Position numbers and translations under genes: made by a program
In this document: piece after piece, positions 8,261 through 50,569 of the stretch
Position numbering within the stretch: position 1 is the stretch's first letter
Layout: each line of letters begins with the position of its first letter
The notes under the pieces: generated by a model
Databases searched by the model: none
What the model was told of the DNA's origin: nothing
The model's input: only the letters and a program-made list of their open reading frames with translations
From: a virus
Strand: one strand, 5' to 3'
Virus record (IMG/VR): IMGVR_UViG_3300042338_000209
Coordinates: 1 to 50,569 of that record
Length of the DNA stretch: 50,569 nt

Positions 8261-11200
8261 TTATTTAATTTCCTCGTACTTGATTATCTTACCATCCTGC
8301 ATTACTGCTCTTAGTCCAAAGTCCTCTAGTTTAGGCTCTTCAAAAGAACGACCTAATAATTCACTTCCAGCCTTATCTTCTGCATACTGTTGAGCGTAGA
8401 CAGATCTAAATAAAGATTGAACTCTTGAGTCTGAATTATTTAAAGCGTCATTAACTTCCTCATCAGATAATAAACTACTCTTATTTGTCTCAATATCCTT
8501 TTTGAACAACTGGTCTAAAGCTGATGATTTTGGAATACCACCTTGCAATCCGTTCTCTAAATAAGTCATTATCTTAGCCTCATCCTGCATTAATTTCAAC
8601 TTCACTTTAGCGTCAGTAATTTTACCAGACTTAATTAAATCTTCAATCTCAGGCTTTCTTTGATTCATTAATTCAATCATCTTTGTAGTAGCCTGTTCAG
8701 ACAACTCTGCATTTCTTTCTTCAGTAAACTGAGAATCTGAAATAGAAACTTCTTTAACAGGAGTCATATTAACACTATCCCATATAGCTCTACCACCAAT
8801 ACTGGTAGCATCTTCCAACTGAACATCCATGTAATTTTTAAGCTCTTTAGTTCCAGGAATATAACCACCAAATTGAGTCATGGCTACAAGATTACCCATA
8901 TAAACCAAGCTTGATAATAATTGAGCCATCTCATACTCTTCTGGAGTTAAATCTCTACCATCGTTTAAATTCATTTGCTCTCCAAGCCTTGTTATCAAAG
9001 AGGTTACGCTAACATTCTGTTTTCCAGCCATAGCCTCTAATTCGTTAAAAACTAGGTTTGAAATCTCTTTGTATTGCGCCCCTACAAATGCTTCGGAAAT
9101 ATCCTTCTTAGATTTGATAGGTCTTATATACATTCTACCCATCATATCCTCCACATCCCTTTTAAGCTTAGGATCTTCAATAGCATTATATCCGTAACCA
9201 AGAGCGAAATTTAATAAAATCCGACCAACAGCATTTTGAGATGAGGACCAGAATGTTACAATTCCATCTACAACGCTTTTTATAACAAAATCCTTAACTC
9301 CCTCTGCTGAATTTAGTGCTTTTAATTGCTCTTTTGCTTTCTCTTTTTCATCATCATCACCAAGAAATGCTAATGTCATATTTTTAACAAGAGCAGCAAA
9401 TACTGAATAAGAAACTAAAGCTGCTGTAACACGCATTACTTTTCTAGTTCCTTTACCAAATTGACCATTAGCTATCTCCCTACTACCTATAATACCCTGT
9501 TGAAAGTCATTAAATAGATAACCATTAAAGAATCCTAAAAATATACCTGCTGCTGAGTCAGAATCAACAGGTTTCCCTAAAAATTTGTTAGCGTATGGAA
9601 TGTATATACCGGCTAAAACTTTTTGCCTTGATTGAGCTTTTAAAGCACCTCTTAGCACAGATTGAAGCTCTTTATCAGCCATAGCTCCAGCCTCTTTTAT
9701 AGCGTAAAAATACTTATCATCATTCAAGAATGAATCGTTCCATTTCTCACCTGTTAGTACTTCAAACTCATCCATAAATGAAGGAAACCAAATAGCACTG
9801 GAAAACAATCCATCTGTTAAACCATTTACAAATTCATTTAACTTTCTTAAATTATTCTCGGTCTTTAATATCTCACCTCCTTCTAAATGTACGTTTTGAG
9901 CTGATCTAAATCTAGTTTTTTCAAGTAGCGGACTACCAACTTTTTCCATTGCCTTTTGCGCTCTTGACTTATCCTTACCCATACCTGTTCTTATCAAGTT
10001 TATTGGGTTTTTAAAAGCGGCAATAGATAACTGAACTGTATTTGTTAATAATTCAGCTATAACCCTAGTTCCAATCAATAATTTAGATGATGTTGCTGAG
10101 CTGAACTTAGACATAGCTTTAGTTAAAGCATCCGAGTTCTTGTTAAGCTCAAAGTTCATTCTAGACTTCTCATTATTAATAATAACACCAAGAACTTTTG
10201 ATTCTCCTGTTGGGGTATCTTGATCTTCTCTGAATTGTCTAGCAATCTCATTAAGCTCTTTTAGTCTTTTAGTAAGAAAATAATCTTTAGAAACATCAGA
10301 AACATGATCCATCACAAGAGAATCCATGTTGAAATTAATAGCTTTAGAAGCTAATGGTACTTCTGAAATTCTTTCGTATGTAGAGCCAGCACGGGTACTT
10401 AATTTATTATTACCTGACGAAGGAACAGCATCACTCATTCCAGAACCTGCATCATATAAATAGCTATGAGGAATATACATATCATTCACCATCCCATTTA
10501 TATTTCTTAATGAATTAGCCGCAACTCCATAAGGAGCTGTTTCATTAAAAGTATCTCTAGCTGCTTGGTATGTTTTTAATACATTAGCGTCAAATATTGT
10601 AGAAGCATTTGGTGAATTAAAAGCCTCATATATCTTAGAGTAATCTAAATCTCCAAATGTAGCTTTAGCAGGATCAACACCATCTTTTAAGAAGCTTGGA
10701 TTAGATAAGAATGAATTGTATATCTCTTCAATAAGTTCAAGGTCTCCATTATCTTTATAAATCCTTCTTACATCTTCATTCTTTAACTGCTCTCCAATAT
10801 AATCTATTGCAGGCTTATTAGCTTTTGAACTATTAAAACCATGCTCTAAAAAATGAGCAAGCATACCTGCTGAATACCTATTTTTAAGAACGTCTTTCTT
10901 CTTAATCTTAGGCATCTTATCCATGTATGCGTTCATAAGTTTTGTTTGAAAACGCCTCATGGATGATATAGCTACGTCAGTTGGATTCAATATAAACTTA
11001 AATATTGAAGAATCTTTTGTTATACCTAAGATACCTTCGTAGTTTTGAACCTCGTTTAACTGAAGTATATTCTTTAAATTTTCAGCCCAATTACTAAATG
11101 AAAACTTCTCTTTTAACTTAGCTATAGAACCTTTCAACTTATTAACAATACCTTGACCTTTTACCTCAGCCTTTCTTAAAATAGCATTAGCTTGAGATTC

Positions 11201-42543: not shown

Positions 42544-43326
42544 ATGGCACAAAAAGATCCAGCCTTCCTGTTCTACACACAGGATTTCTATGTAGGGACA
42601 GCGTTCCTTACACACGCACAAGTAGGAAAGTACATCAGACTTATCTGCGCACAACATCAACATGGGAGATTAACTGAGGAAAAAATCATGCATATTTGCG
42701 GTGATTTAGACCGCAACGTCCTCGACAAATTCCAAAAAGATGACGAAGGAAACTACTACAATGTAAGGCTAGAAGCTGAAATTGAGAAGAGAAAGAAGTT
42801 TTCAGACTCCAGAAGAGGTAACATCAAAAAAAGATGGGAAAAGAATACTAGTGAAATACAAGTGAATAACACTAGTAATACACTTGAATATACTAGTGGA
42901 GATACTAGTGTAATACATATGGAAAATGAAAATATATATATAGAATCTAGTAATATATCTAGTAGTTTAGAAAAAGAAAATATAAAAAGAAAAAGAAAAG
43001 AATTTGTCGCCCCATCGAAAGAGGAGATGATGAGTTACGCAGCTGAAAAAGGTTTTGATCCGAGCGTTGGCTCTCAGGCTTACGAATACTATTCCGTTGC
43101 CGACTGGAAAGACGCAAAAGGGGACCAAGTGTTAAATTGGAAACAGAAAATGATCGCATCATGGTTCAAAAACGCACAGAAAGGGGTCAAATTTCAAATA
43201 ACTAATGAAAATGATATCAACATACCAGGCTATGTAAAAGAGTTCCATAATAACCCTCTAATGAAGCGAGAGGTTGTTAACGGATCTTGGGTTTATAAAT
43301 CTACCCCAATCGGGTTCAAGTCGTAA
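42544..43326 (+). CDS. DUF1376-like replication initiator / helicase-loader protein (260 aa)
   Basis: The N-terminal ~75 residues match the DUF1376 pattern (FLFYTQDFYVGTAFLTHAQV, then GKYIRLICAQHQHGRLTEEK), found in many phage and plasmid initiators. Residues ~95-155 are a variable Asn/Thr/Ser/Lys linker. The C-terminal part (KEEMMSYAAEKGFDPSVGSQ; YYSVADWKDAKGDQVLNWKQ; IASWFKNAQK) is the conserved helicase-loading or DNA-binding end seen in such proteins. It lies upstream of the primase-helicase and behind its own promoter. The linker is encoded by a repeat-rich, AT-rich stretch that may be the origin. It plays a DnaD/lambda O-like role by inference. Confidence 0.65.
   Translation: MAQKDPAFLFYTQDFYVGTAFLTHAQVGKYIRLICAQHQHGRLTEEKIMHICGDLDRNVLDKFQKDDEGNYYNVRLEAEIEKRKKFSDSRRGNIKKRWEKNTSEIQVNNTSNTLEYTSGDTSVIHMENENIYIESSNISSSLEKENIKRKRKEFVAPSKEEMMSYAAEKGFDPSVGSQAYEYYSVADWKDAKGDQVLNWKQKMIASWFKNAQKGVKFQITNENDINIPGYVKEFHNNPLMKREVVNGSWVYKSTPIGFKS
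42847..42963. repeat. ACTAGT iteron-like repeats within the initiator gene
   Basis: ACTAGT occurs four times (42847, 42871, 42892, 42904). TCTAGT occurs twice (42946, 42958). Copies are mostly followed by (G)AATACA-like sequence. Next comes a run of A/T and purine-rich DNA to about 43010. Within the protein these encode T-S or S-S in the linker, always with the codon AGT. Confidence 0.55.
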
Positions 43327-43376: not shown

Positions 43377-45119
43377 ATGATCGAAAGAATAATCAACCTA
43401 CAAACAAAACGTGAGTTCATCATAGACCTCAAGAACGCAACAGGGGAAAATGCTATGCCATGCCCAGAGTGTTCCGGGGATAGGAAGAAGAAGACAGCTA
43501 AGTCTTTTAGTTGGGATGGACAGAAGGGAATCGGAAACTGCCTACACTGCGGAGCTAAGTTTGGGAAGAAGCTAGAGGGGACATACAAGCCCAATGAGTT
43601 ACAGAAACCCATATACTCTCGCCCTGAGTGGAGAAACATCACAGACCTAGAAGATGACGTACTCAAGTTCTTTACCGACAGAGGTTTGTCGCAGCGAGTG
43701 GTCAACCAAGTCAAGATCACACAAGGACGAACTTTCTTCCCACAACTTGAGAAGGAGGCAAAGTGTATCGAGTTCAACTACTTCCGTGACACGGAACTAA
43801 TCAACGTAAAGTACCGTGGACCAAAGAAGTCTTTCAAGCTGTACAAGGATGCTGAGCTGATATTCTACAACTTGGACTCAATGAAGGACATGGACTATGT
43901 GATCATTACGGAAGGGGAAGTTGATGCACTGTCTTACATCGAGGCTGGATACGACTCAGTTATCTCTGTACCAAACGGAGCAACAAAGTCCGCACAACAG
44001 AAGCTAGTCTACCTCGACAACTGCATAGACCTGTTTGATGAAGTTAAAACAATCTTCATAGCCACCGATGACGATGAGCCAGGACGTGTGTTACAGGAGG
44101 AGCTTGCTAGACGTTTAGGTAAATACAGATGTCGCAAGGTTAGCTTCTTGGGATGCAAGGATGCAAACGAGCTGTTAATGAAGGAGCCTCTAGCCCTACA
44201 AGACACAATAACCCAATCAGAGCCATACCCGATTGATGGAGTACTGACCGTAGACAACCTATCGGATGATATCTGGAGATTAAAGCGTGAGGGACTTAAA
44301 CCAGGATGCGATATATCAATCCCCTGCTTTAACGAGCTACTTACCTTTGACCCAGGGTATCTAACCGTTGTCACCGGTATCCCAAACCATGGAAAGTCAG
44401 AGTTCCTTGACCAAATCATGGTGGACCTATCAATCAAGCACGGATGGAGGTTTGGTATATTCTCCCCTGAGAACTACCCACTACAACTCCACTTCTCTAA
44501 GATAGCTTCCAAACTCGTAGGGGAAAGATTCAATGACATGGCAGACCATAAGGTAATACAAGCCATGGACTACTACCGTGATAACTTCTTCTACATCGTC
44601 CCCAAGGAAGATAACAGCGTTGAGAGTATCATCGAACACGCTACCCAACTTGTTAAACGATACGGAATAAACGGACTGATCATAGATGCTTGGAATAAGT
44701 TAGACCACGACTTCGCATCCAACGAGACCACATACATCGGTAAGCAACTCGACTTAATAATAAATTTTGCTCATAAGTTTGGAGTACATATCTTTGTGGT
44801 CGCTCACCCGACAAAAATGCAAAGAGATAAAGGCAACGGACCATACCTAGTCCCCACGCTATATGACATGGCTGGCTCTGCTCACTTCTTTAACAAGTCA
44901 CACAACGGTATATCAGTGTACAGACATTTCTTTGAGGACGGATCATCCTCCCCTGAAGTGTTTGTCCAAAAGGTTAAGTTTAAGCACTGGGGTAGGCAAG
45001 GTAGTGTAGCCCTCCAGTACGATATAGACTCTGGAAGGTTCTACCAACCCTCTAATAAACAATCCGGTAACTACCTAGAGCAAAAAGCAAGTCAAGAAGA
45101 AATGCCATTTGAAATATGA
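43377..45119 (+). CDS. TOPRIM primase / RecA-fold helicase fusion (T7 gp4-like, 580 aa)
   Basis: This is a single-chain replicative primase-helicase. The N-terminal zinc-binding domain has C29-x2-C32 and C55-x2-C58. The TOPRIM part shows VIITEGEVDAL (catalytic Glu ~180) and FIATDDDEPGR (Asp cluster ~231-234). The helicase part has a Walker A GIPNHGKSE (K340), a Walker B GLIIDAWN (D437) and IFVVAHPTKM (sensor-type His). The order equals T7 gp4 and mitochondrial Twinkle. It would unwind the fork and make primers together with the upstream initiator and the downstream DnaA-like protein, whose start overlaps its stop by 4 bp. GC content is visibly higher than in the structural genes. Confidence 0.92.
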   Translation: MIERIINLQTKREFIIDLKNATGENAMPCPECSGDRKKKTAKSFSWDGQKGIGNCLHCGAKFGKKLEGTYKPNELQKPIYSRPEWRNITDLEDDVLKFFTDRGLSQRVVNQVKITQGRTFFPQLEKEAKCIEFNYFRDTELINVKYRGPKKSFKLYKDAELIFYNLDSMKDMDYVIITEGEVDALSYIEAGYDSVISVPNGATKSAQQKLVYLDNCIDLFDEVKTIFIATDDDEPGRVLQEELARRLGKYRCRKVSFLGCKDANELLMKEPLALQDTITQSEPYPIDGVLTVDNLSDDIWRLKREGLKPGCDISIPCFNELLTFDPGYLTVVTGIPNHGKSEFLDQIMVDLSIKHGWRFGIFSPENYPLQLHFSKIASKLVGERFNDMADHKVIQAMDYYRDNFFYIVPKEDNSVESIIEHATQLVKRYGINGLIIDAWNKLDHDFASNETTYIGKQLDLIINFAHKFGVHIFVVAHPTKMQRDKGNGPYLVPTLYDMAGSAHFFNKSHNGISVYRHFFEDGSSSPEVFVQKVKFKHWGRQGSVALQYDIDSGRFYQPSNKQSGNYLEQKASQEEMPFEI

Positions 45120-45643
45120 AACACGCTAATATAGAAGCACTAGTAGAATACGTTAAGCCATACCAAAAGGCTGCCTTCGTATCTCAACTCATAGAAACTC
45201 TAGGGATGGATCATCCTCTGTCCCTAGAAGCTTTTGACTACATGAGCAAGTACCCCATTGTCAAGAAGTGGAGGGATAATCCCAATGCCTTCATGATCAA
45301 GATCCTACAAGCCTGCTGTGAAGAGTTTGCCGTACAAGTAGATGACGTAACCTCCGGTAATAGATCCGGAAACCACGTTGAAGCTAAACGTATGTGGATG
45401 TTCCTCGTTGAAGGGGTTATGTCCAACAACTTCGATAGTATAGCACACTTCATTCAAATGGATAAGTCCTCTATCAAGTACCACATTAGCAAGACCAAGA
45501 GCTTCATTGAAACCAATCGCAAGTACTCAGACAAAGCCAAAGCTATCGTAGATAAACTCCAGGCTGAAGGTATGTCCGAAGTGGTAGACTTCTTTATCAA
45601 AGAAATAAACCACCTACAAAGGGATCTTAATAAAAGGAAGTAA
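45116..45643 (+). CDS. DnaA domain IV-like DNA-binding protein (175 aa)
   Basis: Residues ~62-145 follow the DnaA C-terminal pattern. ILQACCEEFAVQVDDVTSGN parallels IxxxVAxxFxVxxxDLLSxxR. VEAKRMWMFLVEGVMSNNFD parallels the ARQIAMYLxRELT helix. SIAHFIQMDKSSIKYHISKT parallels IGxxFGxRDHTTVxHAxRK, the recognition helix plus signature. There is no AAA+ ATPase domain. The N-terminal ~60 residues are helical. A stand-alone domain IV could bind DnaA boxes at the phage origin or compete with the host initiator. It is coupled to the primase-helicase by a 4-bp overlap and ends the replication operon. Confidence 0.72.
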   Translation: MKHANIEALVEYVKPYQKAAFVSQLIETLGMDHPLSLEAFDYMSKYPIVKKWRDNPNAFMIKILQACCEEFAVQVDDVTSGNRSGNHVEAKRMWMFLVEGVMSNNFDSIAHFIQMDKSSIKYHISKTKSFIETNRKYSDKAKAIVDKLQAEGMSEVVDFFIKEINHLQRDLNKRK

Positions 45644-45689: not shown

Positions 45690-46250
45690 CTAGTTATTTC
45701 TAACCCTCCTGTTTAACACCTTTGTTTTTATGTCAAAGCCTTTTAAGCTTAATATGTAACTCTTAACCACAGAGATGGTTACATTTTCACCCTTCTCAAG
45801 TAAGCTCAATGTAGACCTTGACACACCCATTTTATCCGACAATTCCTGCTGAGTCACCCTTCTGCATATCCTCTCGTTCTTTAACACCTCATGTAAGTTC
45901 ACAATAGAATGACATAGTAAATTAAACTTCTGCTCATCCTCATCATCCCTTAAATCTACCAAGTTACTATTACCTACTTGAATGTTTAGTAGGTTTGGAT
46001 TTATAGAGTGGTAGTAGTCTATCCAGTAAAGCTCCCTACCAGACAAGTCATTCAAATCCTCTACCTCCTCTATGATCTCAATCTTAGGGTATAAAAACCC
46101 ACCCTCTAGTTCACTAACCCATTCCTGAACCTTTTTAGAATGAGACTTAGTTAAATGAGATAAAGCTCTCGACTCTCCAACAGTACTCTTACCAATGTAA
46201 CAATAAACATCGTTTCTAGGGTCTTTTAAACCATATACTATATTCTTCAT
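45690..46250 (-). CDS. GIY-YIG nuclease / XRE HTH fusion protein (186 aa)
   Basis: The N-terminal ~95 residues are a GIY-YIG domain: VYGL (~5-8), CYIGKS (~17-22), R28, then RELYWIDYY (E73) and LLNIQVG (N89). All the active-site residues known in UvrC/I-TevI-type enzymes appear to be present. Residues ~115-175 carry an XRE-type helix-turn-helix (RRVTQQELSDKMGVSRSTLS, then LLEKGENVTIS). The protein could be a regulator with nuclease activity, such as a self-limiting repressor, or a site-specific nuclease with an HTH target reader. It lies opposite the replication operon. Confidence 0.75.
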   Translation of the reverse strand: MKNIVYGLKDPRNDVYCYIGKSTVGESRALSHLTKSHSKKVQEWVSELEGGFLYPKIEIIEEVEDLNDLSGRELYWIDYYHSINPNLLNIQVGNSNLVDLRDDEDEQKFNLLCHSIVNLHEVLKNERICRRVTQQELSDKMGVSRSTLSLLEKGENVTISVVKSYILSLKGFDIKTKVLNRRVRNN

Positions 46251-46493: not shown

Positions 46494-46509
46494 TGTTTCA
46501 CGTGAAACA
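46494..46509. other. parS centromere site, perfect consensus
   Basis: TGTTTCACGTGAAACA is identical to the 16-bp chromosomal parS consensus known from Bacillus subtilis and conserved widely in bacteria. ParB loads here and spreads. It is a perfect palindrome in a non-coding region. Confidence 0.85.
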
Positions 46510-46567: not shown

Positions 46568-46590
46568 TTATTTAGAATCGTTCTAAATAA
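46568..46590. promoter_or_regulatory. Operator-like dyad 1
   Basis: Perfect 10-bp arms TTATTTAGAA and TTCTAAATAA are separated by TCG. The pattern TTTAGAA-N3-TTCTAAA resembles iron-responsive Irr/Fur-type boxes as I recall them. A related copy lies at 46788-46810. Confidence 0.55.
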
Positions 46591-46787: not shown

Positions 46788-46810
46788 TTATTTAGACTCA
46801 TTCTAAATTT
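46788..46810. promoter_or_regulatory. Operator-like dyad 2
   Basis: ATTTAGACTCATTCTAAAT at 46790-46808 agrees with dyad 1 in 17 of 19 positions. It lies about 33 bp upstream of the -33 box of the next promoter, so a bound regulator could control it. Confidence 0.5.
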
Positions 46811-47197: not shown

Positions 47198-47213
47198 CGT
47201 TTCACGTGGAACA
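47198..47213. other. Second parS-like site (15/16 on the reverse strand)
   Basis: CGTTTCACGTGGAACA, read on the minus strand as TGTTCCACGTGAAACG, matches the B. subtilis spo0J parS sequence TGTTCCACGTGAAACA at 15 of 16 bases. It lies 704 bp from the first parS. Confidence 0.75.
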
Positions 47214-47970: not shown

Positions 47971-48162
47971 ATGAAAAAACAAATCATCGCATCACTCTCA
48001 GTATTATTGGGAGTGTTAATCGTAGCTATGCTAAGTTCATGCGCTACATCGGGCTACAACTATTCAGCCCATTCACGCAAAAACAAGTCAGTCATGAGCA
48101 AGGCACACAAGCGTAATGCAGGGCGTGACATGGTTAATTACAGATGTACTAACAAACACTAA
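47971..48162 (+). CDS. Small lipoprotein (63 aa)
   Basis: The ATG at 47971 follows a classic AACAACAAACAACAT leader. The protein starts MKKQIIASLSVLLGVLIVAM and then LSSCATSG, a lipobox with the modified Cys at residue 24, so the mature lipoprotein is about 40 residues, basic and polar (YNYSAHSRKNKSVMSKAHKR). It should be exported and anchored in a membrane. Phage lipoproteins of this type (T5 Llp, lambda-like Cor proteins) often block superinfection by binding the phage receptor. That role is suggested here by type and place only. Confidence 0.65.
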   Translation: MKKQIIASLSVLLGVLIVAMLSSCATSGYNYSAHSRKNKSVMSKAHKRNAGRDMVNYRCTNKH

Positions 48163-48172
48163 AACAAACAAT

Positions 48173-49666
48173 ATGAAAACAGGTATCCATTGGTTACAAG
48201 ACTATCTTTCTCGGGATGAGTTTGATAGCGTTAAGAATCTACTTCACAACAAGTACAGACTTTACAACAATGCAGCAGAGGCATTGGACTATTGTCTTAC
48301 ATGGGCTGAAACTAGTCAAGGTCACTCGTATTGGTCAGACATCAGAAATGAGATACGAGTAGGATCACGCTCCCCATTACAAGATAGCACACGCTATGTA
48401 TGCCGCAGAGAGGTTGTTCAAAACGAACACGGCAAGTGGATGTTGAAGGACAATGCTCATGCTGTTGTCGGGGTTCACAGATACTACCACCACAAGAATG
48501 TGTGTAGTTATATTGACATTGGTGAATACGCTGGCGAATACGCTCACGAAAACAATGTAGTAACCTCTGACTACTCAGATAAGACTATGTATACTGACGA
48601 GGCTAAGTATACAACAGATAACAGATGCTTCCACGAAGATGAAGCAAGTGACTATAACATTGTATGGGCAGAAAACGTAGATGACTGGGCTGACGAAGAT
48701 GATTGTCGATGGGGTGTATGGGATAGTCGGGGTAGAGAGGCATGGCTGTATGACGATGGTGACTTAGTGTATTGCGATGAAAATAATACATACTATGCAA
48801 GTGAGTCTGTTGCAAATAACAACGACATATACTTCCACAATGGTGAGTACAGACACTCAGATAACATACATGATGAAGACGACGATGGCTATTGTGTGCG
48901 TGACTACCACCACTTCAGTAGGGTGTCCAAGTATGGTCGTGAAACCCCTAACTTTACTGTCGGCTTCGAGATAGAGAAAGAGGATAGGGATGCTAAGTGT
49001 GGCAATGATGCACAAGATATCTACGATGCTACTAAATGGTGTCATGAGAAAGATGGTAGCCTTGACTCATACTCTGGCTTCGAGTTAGTGTCACCCATAC
49101 TTGACCTGTATGATACTGACGCTCTGCTCAAAGAGTTCAATCACCCAATGATCAAACCCCTTATCAATGCTTCTTGGAATAGTGACTCATGCGGTGGGCA
49201 TATCAATATCGGGTCGTCCAAGTACAATAGTGAGCAACTAGCCAATGGTATTGTCGGGTTCTTCCCTCTGCTGTATGCTATGTACCCCAATCGTCTTGAT
49301 AAGAACTATTCACAAGCTAAGTCCAAGCATAGGTACTTTGAAAATAAAGACAAGTATAGTAGTGTACTCATCAAGCCTAATGTTGTTGAGCTTCGTATCT
49401 TCCCTGCTGTTCGTGGTGTAGATAACCTTATGTGGCGTGTCGGTTTAGTTAGGCTTATGGTAGAGAATCTATACAAGTCTGAGCTTGATGTACTCAAGAT
49501 GATGCTTAACACTCGCTCTCGATTGTACAAACATTTGTCTAAGGTATATACTCCTGAGAAGATGATTGACAAGGTTAGTATGTTCATCAAGTACTCTAAC
49601 ATCTACAATGGTACTATGCTAGAGTTTCCAACTAAAAAAGAAAACAAAACAAAAACAAATAACTAA
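48173..49666 (+). CDS. Amidoligase_2-family COOH-NH2 ligase (497 aa)
   Basis: This is a predicted ATP-dependent ligase of the glutamine-synthetase fold that forms amide bonds between a carboxylate and an amine. Key motifs: GFEIEKE at 264-270, the segment DGSLDSYSGFELVSPIL (~296-312), CGGHINIG at 340-347, and VELRIFPA with the Glu at ~406. These are the acidic/His/Arg residues that bind metal and nucleotide in the family. The N-terminal ~260 residues are Asp/Tyr/His-rich, of unknown fold (DENNTYYAS; SDNIHDEDDDG). I chose the ATG at 48173, which has an AAACAAACAAT leader; an upstream in-frame ATG overlaps the lipoprotein gene. A class II glutamine amidotransferase follows after 6 bp, so the two probably act together. 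Confidence 0.75.
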   Translation: MKTGIHWLQDYLSRDEFDSVKNLLHNKYRLYNNAAEALDYCLTWAETSQGHSYWSDIRNEIRVGSRSPLQDSTRYVCRREVVQNEHGKWMLKDNAHAVVGVHRYYHHKNVCSYIDIGEYAGEYAHENNVVTSDYSDKTMYTDEAKYTTDNRCFHEDEASDYNIVWAENVDDWADEDDCRWGVWDSRGREAWLYDDGDLVYCDENNTYYASESVANNNDIYFHNGEYRHSDNIHDEDDDGYCVRDYHHFSRVSKYGRETPNFTVGFEIEKEDRDAKCGNDAQDIYDATKWCHEKDGSLDSYSGFELVSPILDLYDTDALLKEFNHPMIKPLINASWNSDSCGGHINIGSSKYNSEQLANGIVGFFPLLYAMYPNRLDKNYSQAKSKHRYFENKDKYSSVLIKPNVVELRIFPAVRGVDNLMWRVGLVRLMVENLYKSELDVLKMMLNTRSRLYKHLSKVYTPEKMIDKVSMFIKYSNIYNGTMLEFPTKKENKTKTNN

Positions 49667-49672
49667 TAGATT

Positions 49673-50569
49673 ATGTGTATCGCAATTATGAATCCGTCCA
49701 CTGTGACGTTAAAGAAGAAAACTATCCGCACTTGTTGGGATAACAATTACAATGGTGCTGGTATGTTGTATATCAATAGCACTACTAACAAGCTAGAGAC
49801 ATTCAAGGAGATGACTAGCTTCGATAGGTATTACAAGGCTTATCAAGATATTCGCAAGGCTCATCCTAAGTCTAAGGTTATCTTACACTTTCGTATTGCT
49901 ACTCATGGTATCATCAACGAGGATAACTGTCACCCATTCATGGTCAATGAAGACCTTGGGTTTGTTCACAATGGTATCATACAACAAGCCCCTCACTCTC
50001 AGCTGTATAGTGACACGTATATGTTCAACGAGTCGTATCTCAAAAAGCTACCCGATGACTTCATATCCAACCCAATCATTAACGAATTGATTGCAGAGTT
50101 CATTGGGTATAGCAAGTTAGTGTTCTTAGATGCTGACAACAATCACACTATTATCAATGAGCAGGATGGTGTATGGGATGCAGGGTGTTGGTTTAGCAAT
50201 CGCAGCTATATGCCTACTAACTATATTGACTATGGTGGTAAGAAGATTCGCAAGACTGATACTGCTAGTACAGCCAAGCCTGTAAACTACGGGACTTACT
50301 ATCATCGCAATAGTTGGTATAACGAGGCTGATTGGGATGTTGATAACTACAACAAATCGTTTGGGGTTGAGACTGATAAGGAAGAGGATGAGCCTAAGTA
50401 TCGTTGTGAGTGTTGTGAGAAGCTATCCCATGAAACGTATAGTGGGTTAGCGTATCACAGAGGCTATGACTCTTTCTTGTGTGCAGATTGTGAGTGGGAT
50501 TTAGAGAATGAGTTTGACGATACTGAAAAGCTAATAAGCATAGATACGGTAACAACTAAAACCCCATTC
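49673..50569 (+). CDS. Class II glutamine amidotransferase, partial (GATase, Ntn-type)
   Basis: The frame is open to the window edge (299 codons). It begins MCIAIMNP, so after Met removal Cys2 would be the N-terminal nucleophile. Further class II motifs: HFRIATHG (R74, T77, H78), FVHNGII (N100, G101) and SDTYMF (D114), each equal to residues of PurF/GlmS/asparagine-synthetase-type glutaminase domains. The domain releases ammonia from glutamine. The C-terminal region has a zinc-ribbon-like pattern, CECCEKL and CADCEW (about 25 residues apart), which is unusual. It is 6 bp after the amidoligase gene. The ammonia acceptor domain, if any, would be beyond the edge or be the amidoligase. Confidence 0.8.
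   Translation, partial: MCIAIMNPSTVTLKKKTIRTCWDNNYNGAGMLYINSTTNKLETFKEMTSFDRYYKAYQDIRKAHPKSKVILHFRIATHGIINEDNCHPFMVNEDLGFVHNGIIQQAPHSQLYSDTYMFNESYLKKLPDDFISNPIINELIAEFIGYSKLVFLDADNNHTIINEQDGVWDAGCWFSNRSYMPTNYIDYGGKKIRKTDTASTAKPVNYGTYYHRNSWYNEADWDVDNYNKSFGVETDKEEDEPKYRCECCEKLSHETYSGLAYHRGYDSFLCADCEWDLENEFDDTEKLISIDTVTTKTPF

Follow-up and report, generated by a model that had tools for sequence, protein, structure and literature searches.

The window, i.e. the whole stretch of 50,569 bases analyzed here, encodes near its right end an Amidoligase_2-type COOH-NH2 ligase followed by a class II glutamine amidotransferase (GATase). This pair is a reduced two-gene form of an amidoligase/GATase cassette already known from phiEco32, LUZ24-like, RIO-1-like, Marvin and OM43 phages, and the minimal form is what differs. 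We give slightly better than an even chance to the reading that both genes work as one unit, a minimal glutamine-dependent amidation module, acting most likely on a precursor of the host cell envelope. The folds, the family, the intact catalytic residues, the strict pairing and the purifying selection reported below are computed. The features are listed in Table 1.

Table 1. Positions of the ligase/GATase pair, its predicted domains and motifs, and associated features
Feature	Position	Strand	Basis or remark
Primosomal protein	42544-43326	+	Replication block
Primase/helicase	43377-45119	+	Replication block, upstream of the pair
DnaA-C-like protein	45116-45643	+	PF08299, E 2.5e-8; DnaA C-terminal DNA-binding domain; adjoins primase/helicase
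Amidoligase_2-type (glutamine-synthetase-fold) COOH-NH2 ligase, 497 aa	48173..49666	+	ORF, profile-profile, AF2 fold, BFVD
About 8 hairpin repeats, consensus GEYyHeDDavyynD, ligase residues 87-237	48431..48883	+	Repeat HMM, AF2
Glutamine-synthetase-fold catalytic domain (predicted), ligase residues 255-470	48935..49582	+	AF2 model, fold comparison
E266-x-E268, motif GFEIEKED, predicted Mg/ATP ligands	48968..48976	+	Invariant in 50 relatives
C340-G-G-H343, predicted active-site His	49190..49201	+	No variation at C340, G341 or H343 among 50 relatives
E406-x-R408, predicted metal-ligand Glu and catalytic Arg	49388..49396	+	Invariant in 50 relatives
Class II (Ntn) GATase, 299 aa, open at contig end	49673..50569	+	Pfam, PHROG 25883, profile-profile, fold
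Predicted nucleophile Cys2 (N-terminal once Met is removed)	49676..49678	+	MC start, 44 relatives
Zinc-ribbon-like CxxC...CxxC, C-terminal, GATase residues 245-273	50405..50491	+	Two or more CxxC in 34 of 44 family GATases
parS-like palindromes in relatives	L001 2961, 2992; L002 3413/3467/4310; L003 3512/3613/4312; L008 3132		Records of relatives

The ligase

The ligase ORF extends from the ATG at 48173 to a stop codon ending at 49666. An alternative in-frame ATG at 48116 would run into the small ORF that ends at 48162. By itself the window ligase has no Pfam match, including none above the curated cut-off of PF12224. This model is matched by 9 of 50 ligase relatives (best E 1.6e-5), and the known members from phages tf, RIO-1 and phiEco32 score only 25-34 bits with it. 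Profile-profile comparison with hhalign aligned the ligase family motif for motif with the phage Amidoligase_2 proteins of tf, RIO-1, phiEco32, Marvin and MEP402 (97.9 %, E 6e-13). The AF2 model (mean pLDDT 84.7) resembles glutamine synthetase (GS, Z 10.2) and the YbdK-like structure 1tt4 (Z 9.6) in the PDB; the YbdK-like 1r8g also matches, and PafA and Dop are among the Foldseek matches. Similar viral models in BFVD, where named, are mostly called 'Amidoligase enzyme', that of phage tf included. Because of the PF12224 matches of relatives, the profile-profile comparison and the predicted fold, the C-terminal half of the ligase is assigned to Amidoligase_2 (PF12224) with a predicted GS fold. 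An assignment to the phiEco32-like COOH-NH2 ligase type 2 (PF14395) was ruled out (hhalign 5.3 % versus tf_19, phi32_86 and RIO-1_10).

A close-homologue search of viral contigs with the ligase alone returned no relatives, and 79 viral loci were retrieved once an alignment of its first relatives served as the profile query. In the PDB, neither the ligase sequence nor its profile matched anything beyond chance. A scan of GTDB genomes found no ligase relative, a result that cannot show absence in bacteria since one single peptide pattern was used.

Across the 50 relatives, 14 ligase residues are invariant, including those of the GS-type motifs (among them E266, E268, D294, E304, C340, G341, H343, R374, E406, R408 and R422). 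Their order is that in which glutamine synthetase carries its metal and ATP ligands. The GFEIEKED motif aligns with LGFEVELEG of the phage tf amidoligase. A previous sequence-only reading of this DNA had proposed a GS-fold COOH-NH2 ligase and an Ntn-type glutaminase, both with intact active sites. The amidoligase fold was indeed recovered by profile and model comparison, and the catalytic residues are retained throughout the 50 ligase and, as described below, 44 GATase relatives.

The same reading could not place the large Asp/Tyr/His-rich N-terminal part of the ligase. This part is a hairpin-repeat array, elements of which recur in many relatives. The AF2 model presents it as successive short strand/turn/strand units, with pLDDT mostly >90 from residue 111. 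A repeat HMM gave 33 matches in the N-termini of 50 relatives versus 2 in shuffled versions; at least one match occurs in 23 of 51 representatives and two or more in 5 of 51. Several loci with a ligase-GATase-ligase order have hairpin units in the first ligase and none in the second, and for this reason the array probably sets substrate choice. An intact LIM domain or zinc finger was also considered for the N-terminal domain and dropped, CxxC being mostly absent there; one viral structure match of the ligase carries a LIM label. Ahead of the array lies a small helical stretch with similarity to free-standing small proteins of phages (PHROG 16354). Stand-alone small proteins (FDWDESPEGFEFW) similar to this helical N-terminus are encoded at 8721-9143 of locus L007 and in its relatives, and the stretch can be read as a mobile module.

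The amidotransferase

The GATase ORF begins with the ATG at 49673 and its frame is still open at 50569, the last base of the window. Its relatives have lengths of about 290-320 aa and several of those proteins end in ...PF, so that the window GATase probably lacks no more than its stop codon. Its Pfam matches (GATase_4/GATase_6) are weak, just below cut-off. At the profile level the family matches the GATases of tf, RIO-1, phiEco32, Marvin and MEP402 at 99.8 %. The modeled fold is unambiguous and scores equally with GlmS and EgtC (Z 13.9 to both), and substrate-bound EgtC structures (4zfk, 4zfl) give Z 13.6-13.9. Residues C2, R74, T77, N100, G101 and D114 are invariant, as is the MC start in the 44 relatives. 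By Cys2, Arg, Asn-Gly, Asp and the modeled fold, the protein is classified as a class II, GlmS-type Ntn glutaminase, as the sequence-only reading had predicted. Its zinc-ribbon-like end, left unplaced in that reading, turns out to be a family feature: 34 of 44 family GATases have two or more CxxC beyond residue 180, and the GATases of phages tf, RIO-1 and phiEco32 likewise end in such a ribbon.

Pairing, selection and related loci

The two genes are separated by 6 bp, confirming the spacing noted earlier. When the neighborhood of Amidoligase_2 and GATase II genes was surveyed in phages, each of the 49 ligase clusters that had space for it downstream was followed by a GATase no more than 1 kb off, in most cases at a distance of 2-60 bp; the other two of the 51 clusters (70 % identity) run off their contigs. 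A few loci are biased to pairing because the GATase served as their query, while most were retrieved with the ligase; the pairing is far above chance. Pairwise distances of ligases and GATases are correlated (Mantel r 0.71, p 0.0002, 42 pairs), and shared phage history may be a partial cause. The pair is under purifying selection, with dN/dS of about 0.07-0.24 in eight of nine comparisons; the closest pair gave 0.65, with too few changes for judgement.

A ligase-GATase-ligase order is found in 13 loci, nine without near-duplicates, and the motifs are intact in most of them. Two ligases around one GATase are expected if a single nitrogen donor serves both. Locus L073 (2017-7100) contains a ligase-GATase-ligase-GATase tandem with two genes of each kind. 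No third obligate gene family was found, none being present in more than 11 of about 50 loci, antisense artefacts aside. The two largest extra clusters were rejected as partner genes, as their ORFs run antisense to the ligase and GATase genes. Because no third family is widespread and neither ATP-grasp nor COOH-NH2 ligase 2 was detected in relatives (see below), the pair can stand alone. In L014 (6926-8143, MW202828), directly 3′ of the ligase, a GATase II domain is fused to a gamma-glutamyl cyclotransferase-type domain (GGCT; GGACT, E 7.5e-18).

Gene setting and upstream region

The record spans exactly the window, is linear and has no sequence right of 50569; it is probably a fragment of the genome. 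Late genes occupy the minus strand (about 0.5-41.5 kb), followed on the plus strand by a replication block and then the pair, which sits in this early/replication gene block. At 22 % identity, the portal is similar to those of Flavobacterium and Cellulophaga podoviruses, whose genomes measure about 60 kb, and this likeness suggests that the host is a member of the Bacteroidota. On the minus strand, the gene at 45690-46250 joins a GIY-YIG nuclease-like N-terminus to an XRE-type HTH and may be read as a homing-endonuclease-like gene or as a repressor.

A roughly 1-kb non-coding stretch precedes the pair. It contains parS-like palindromes (TGTTTCACGTGAAACA) at 46494-46509 and 47198-47213, identical or nearly identical to chromosomal parS (chance expectation 0.01). 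The nearest relatives each have one to three exact copies at similar positions, and none was found in 22 more distant virus records. No ParB_N gene was found in the records with such palindromes, consistent with the phage employing ParB from its host. The DnaA-C-like gene lies close to these sites, and this is a possible candidate for the phage origin region. The same stretch has imperfect 7-1-7 inverted boxes (TTAGAATCGTTCTAA, TTAGACTCATTCTAA) at 46570-46590 and 46788-46808, which by sequence appear Fur/PerR-like or operator-like. Promoter and terminator scans gave no more matches than in shuffled sequence. Directly 5′ of the ligase, a small ORF (47971-48162) has the lipoprotein signal LIVAMLSSC. 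A small lipoprotein is encoded in the same place in L002 and nearby in L007, L009 and L038; that of the window could be a surface-exclusion protein.

Comparison with known systems

Amidoligase/GATase genes of phages have been annotated since 2009, the cassette reportedly being described by Iyer et al. in that year. The novelty implied by the sequence-only reading finds no support, as the Amidoligase_2 and GATase II pair had already been described in several phage groups. In phage tf, COOH-NH2 ligase 2, Amidoligase_2, GATase, ATP-grasp and GGCT occur together, and phiEco32 and RIO-1 likewise hold the pair beside ATP-grasp and GGCT-type genes. ATP-grasp was undetected in the window and 23 related virus records, using the RimK family and a profile from three cassette enzymes that recovered all three reference phages. 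PF14395 was also undetected in these records with a model that recovered tf and phiEco32 and missed RIO-1's. GGCT, for which the search control was positive, occurs in five of the 24 related records (window included), and adjoins the ligase in L033. In the window itself, a linear and probably incomplete contig, none of the three was found. As the pair is homologous to the cassette and the other tested cassette families were undetected, the window represents the known kind in reduced form.

Like the tf/LUZ24-like/phiEco32/RIO-1 cassette (Iyer et al. 2009; Hardies et al. 2013), the window combines Amidoligase_2 with a CxxC-ended class II GATase. Phage tf shares the ligase-GATase order (28 bp apart in tf) and has a primase/helicase nearby. 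In contrast to tf, phiEco32 and RIO-1, the window ligase has a hairpin-repeat N-terminal domain, the GATase is shorter (299 versus 420-676 aa), and GGCT is present in only some relatives. In gp105-gp106 of mycobacteriophage Marvin and gp06-gp07 of the OM43 phage MEP402, the ligase adjoins the GATase and cassette-type ATP-grasp is undetected. Their ligases have low identity to that of the window (about 20 % for MEP402) and N-terminal CxxC clusters in place of the hairpin repeats. Among cellular enzymes, the GlmS glutaminase domain and EgtC share the Ntn fold, the Cys nucleophile and the gamma-glutamyl-binding residues with the window GATase, which lacks the fused synthase domain of GlmS and has the C-terminal zinc ribbon. 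Glutamine synthetase, YbdK and PafA/Dop share the GS catalytic fold, the paired Glu, the His and the Glu-x-Arg with the window ligase, whose catalytic domain is shorter (about 215 aa spanned) and whose N-terminal domain is different.

Proposed function

We propose that the N-terminal Cys of the GATase would free ammonia from glutamine, and that the GS-fold ligase would activate a carboxylate with ATP as an acyl phosphate and join it to this ammonia to form an amide. The general chemistry suggested earlier, from glutamine-derived nitrogen to an amide, is supported. The hairpin array, and possibly the zinc ribbon, would select or dock the substrate or partner. The likeliest target would be a precursor that the host makes in its cytosol for the cell envelope, e.g. 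a carboxylate of the peptidoglycan stem peptide, and the resulting change could protect the infected cell against competing phages. Ammonia passing between the two proteins is inferred, as are product, substrate and benefit. In naming the envelope as target we follow earlier published suggestions (PMC5498523; PMC10580990): PSA-HP1 and others are said to carry a peptidoglycan modification cassette against superinfection (PMC5498523), and OM43 phages encode an amidoligase and a GATase (PMC10580990). No envelope or peptidoglycan enzyme was found linked to the pair in related phages. Our literature search found no biochemical test of any amidoligase/GATase member and no tested substrate. Nothing observed here favors capsid or DNA modification or anti-defense, purposes raised in the sequence-only reading. 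A role as a defense system was also considered and dropped, PADLOC giving no match for the ligase or the GATase.

EgtC has a class II fold, yet it cleaves gamma-glutamyl amides. As it ties with GlmS in the fold comparison, a class II fold is no proof of ammonia transfer. The ligase could instead put gamma-Glu on an amine to protect, activate or tag it, and the protein with the GATase fold, at times helped by GGCT, would hydrolyze the gamma-glutamyl amide. Precedents are EgtA/EgtC and the gamma-glutamyl protection step of butirosin biosynthesis. We regard such a cycle as unlikely, yet no other alternative is stronger: EgtC, also in its substrate-bound forms, matches the GATase model as well as GlmS does, and GGCT, whose substrates are gamma-glutamyl amines, is sometimes linked, by fusion to the GATase or next to the ligase. 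The resemblance of the ligase model to GS and to the YbdK-like structures is also compatible with it. However, most records of relatives are without GGCT, one GATase for two ligases suits an ammonia donor better, and the conserved residues binding Gln or gamma-Glu fit either reading.

The large N-terminal array looks like a substrate reader, and PafA and Dop are GS-fold enzymes that act on proteins. The array could thus recognize a protein of host or phage, whose acidic side chains or C-terminus the ligase could amidate, or to which it could attach an amine, reprogramming host machinery. This is quite improbable in our view: no linked peptide tag or target gene was found at the loci, and the likeness to PafA and Dop is limited to the common fold. 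In a narrower version, for which we see only a slim chance, the minimal pair would be a phage protein-amidation system, the array reading one particular host protein and glutamine-fed amidation of that protein's carboxylates switching host machinery or a defense protein. If true, this would add a new pathway of post-translational modification, with a mechanism that parallels pupylation. Finally, it is very doubtful that the pair recycles glutamine and ammonia and so aids amino-acid synthesis in host or phage. This has been claimed for Phage-ZRK32 (PMC10945688), where a phage with amidoligase, GATase, glutathione synthase and GGCT correlates with growth on nitrate or ammonium. That study seems to contain no assay of the genes themselves, and bulk nitrogen assimilation needs no Amidoligase_2 with a dedicated recognition domain.

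Always paired and under purifying selection, this two-enzyme lineage is the simplest system for asking what is amidated and why. If the amidation of an envelope precursor is true, the pair would represent a common, uncharacterized phage route for remodeling the infected cell. If a protein is the target, it would represent a new protein modification.
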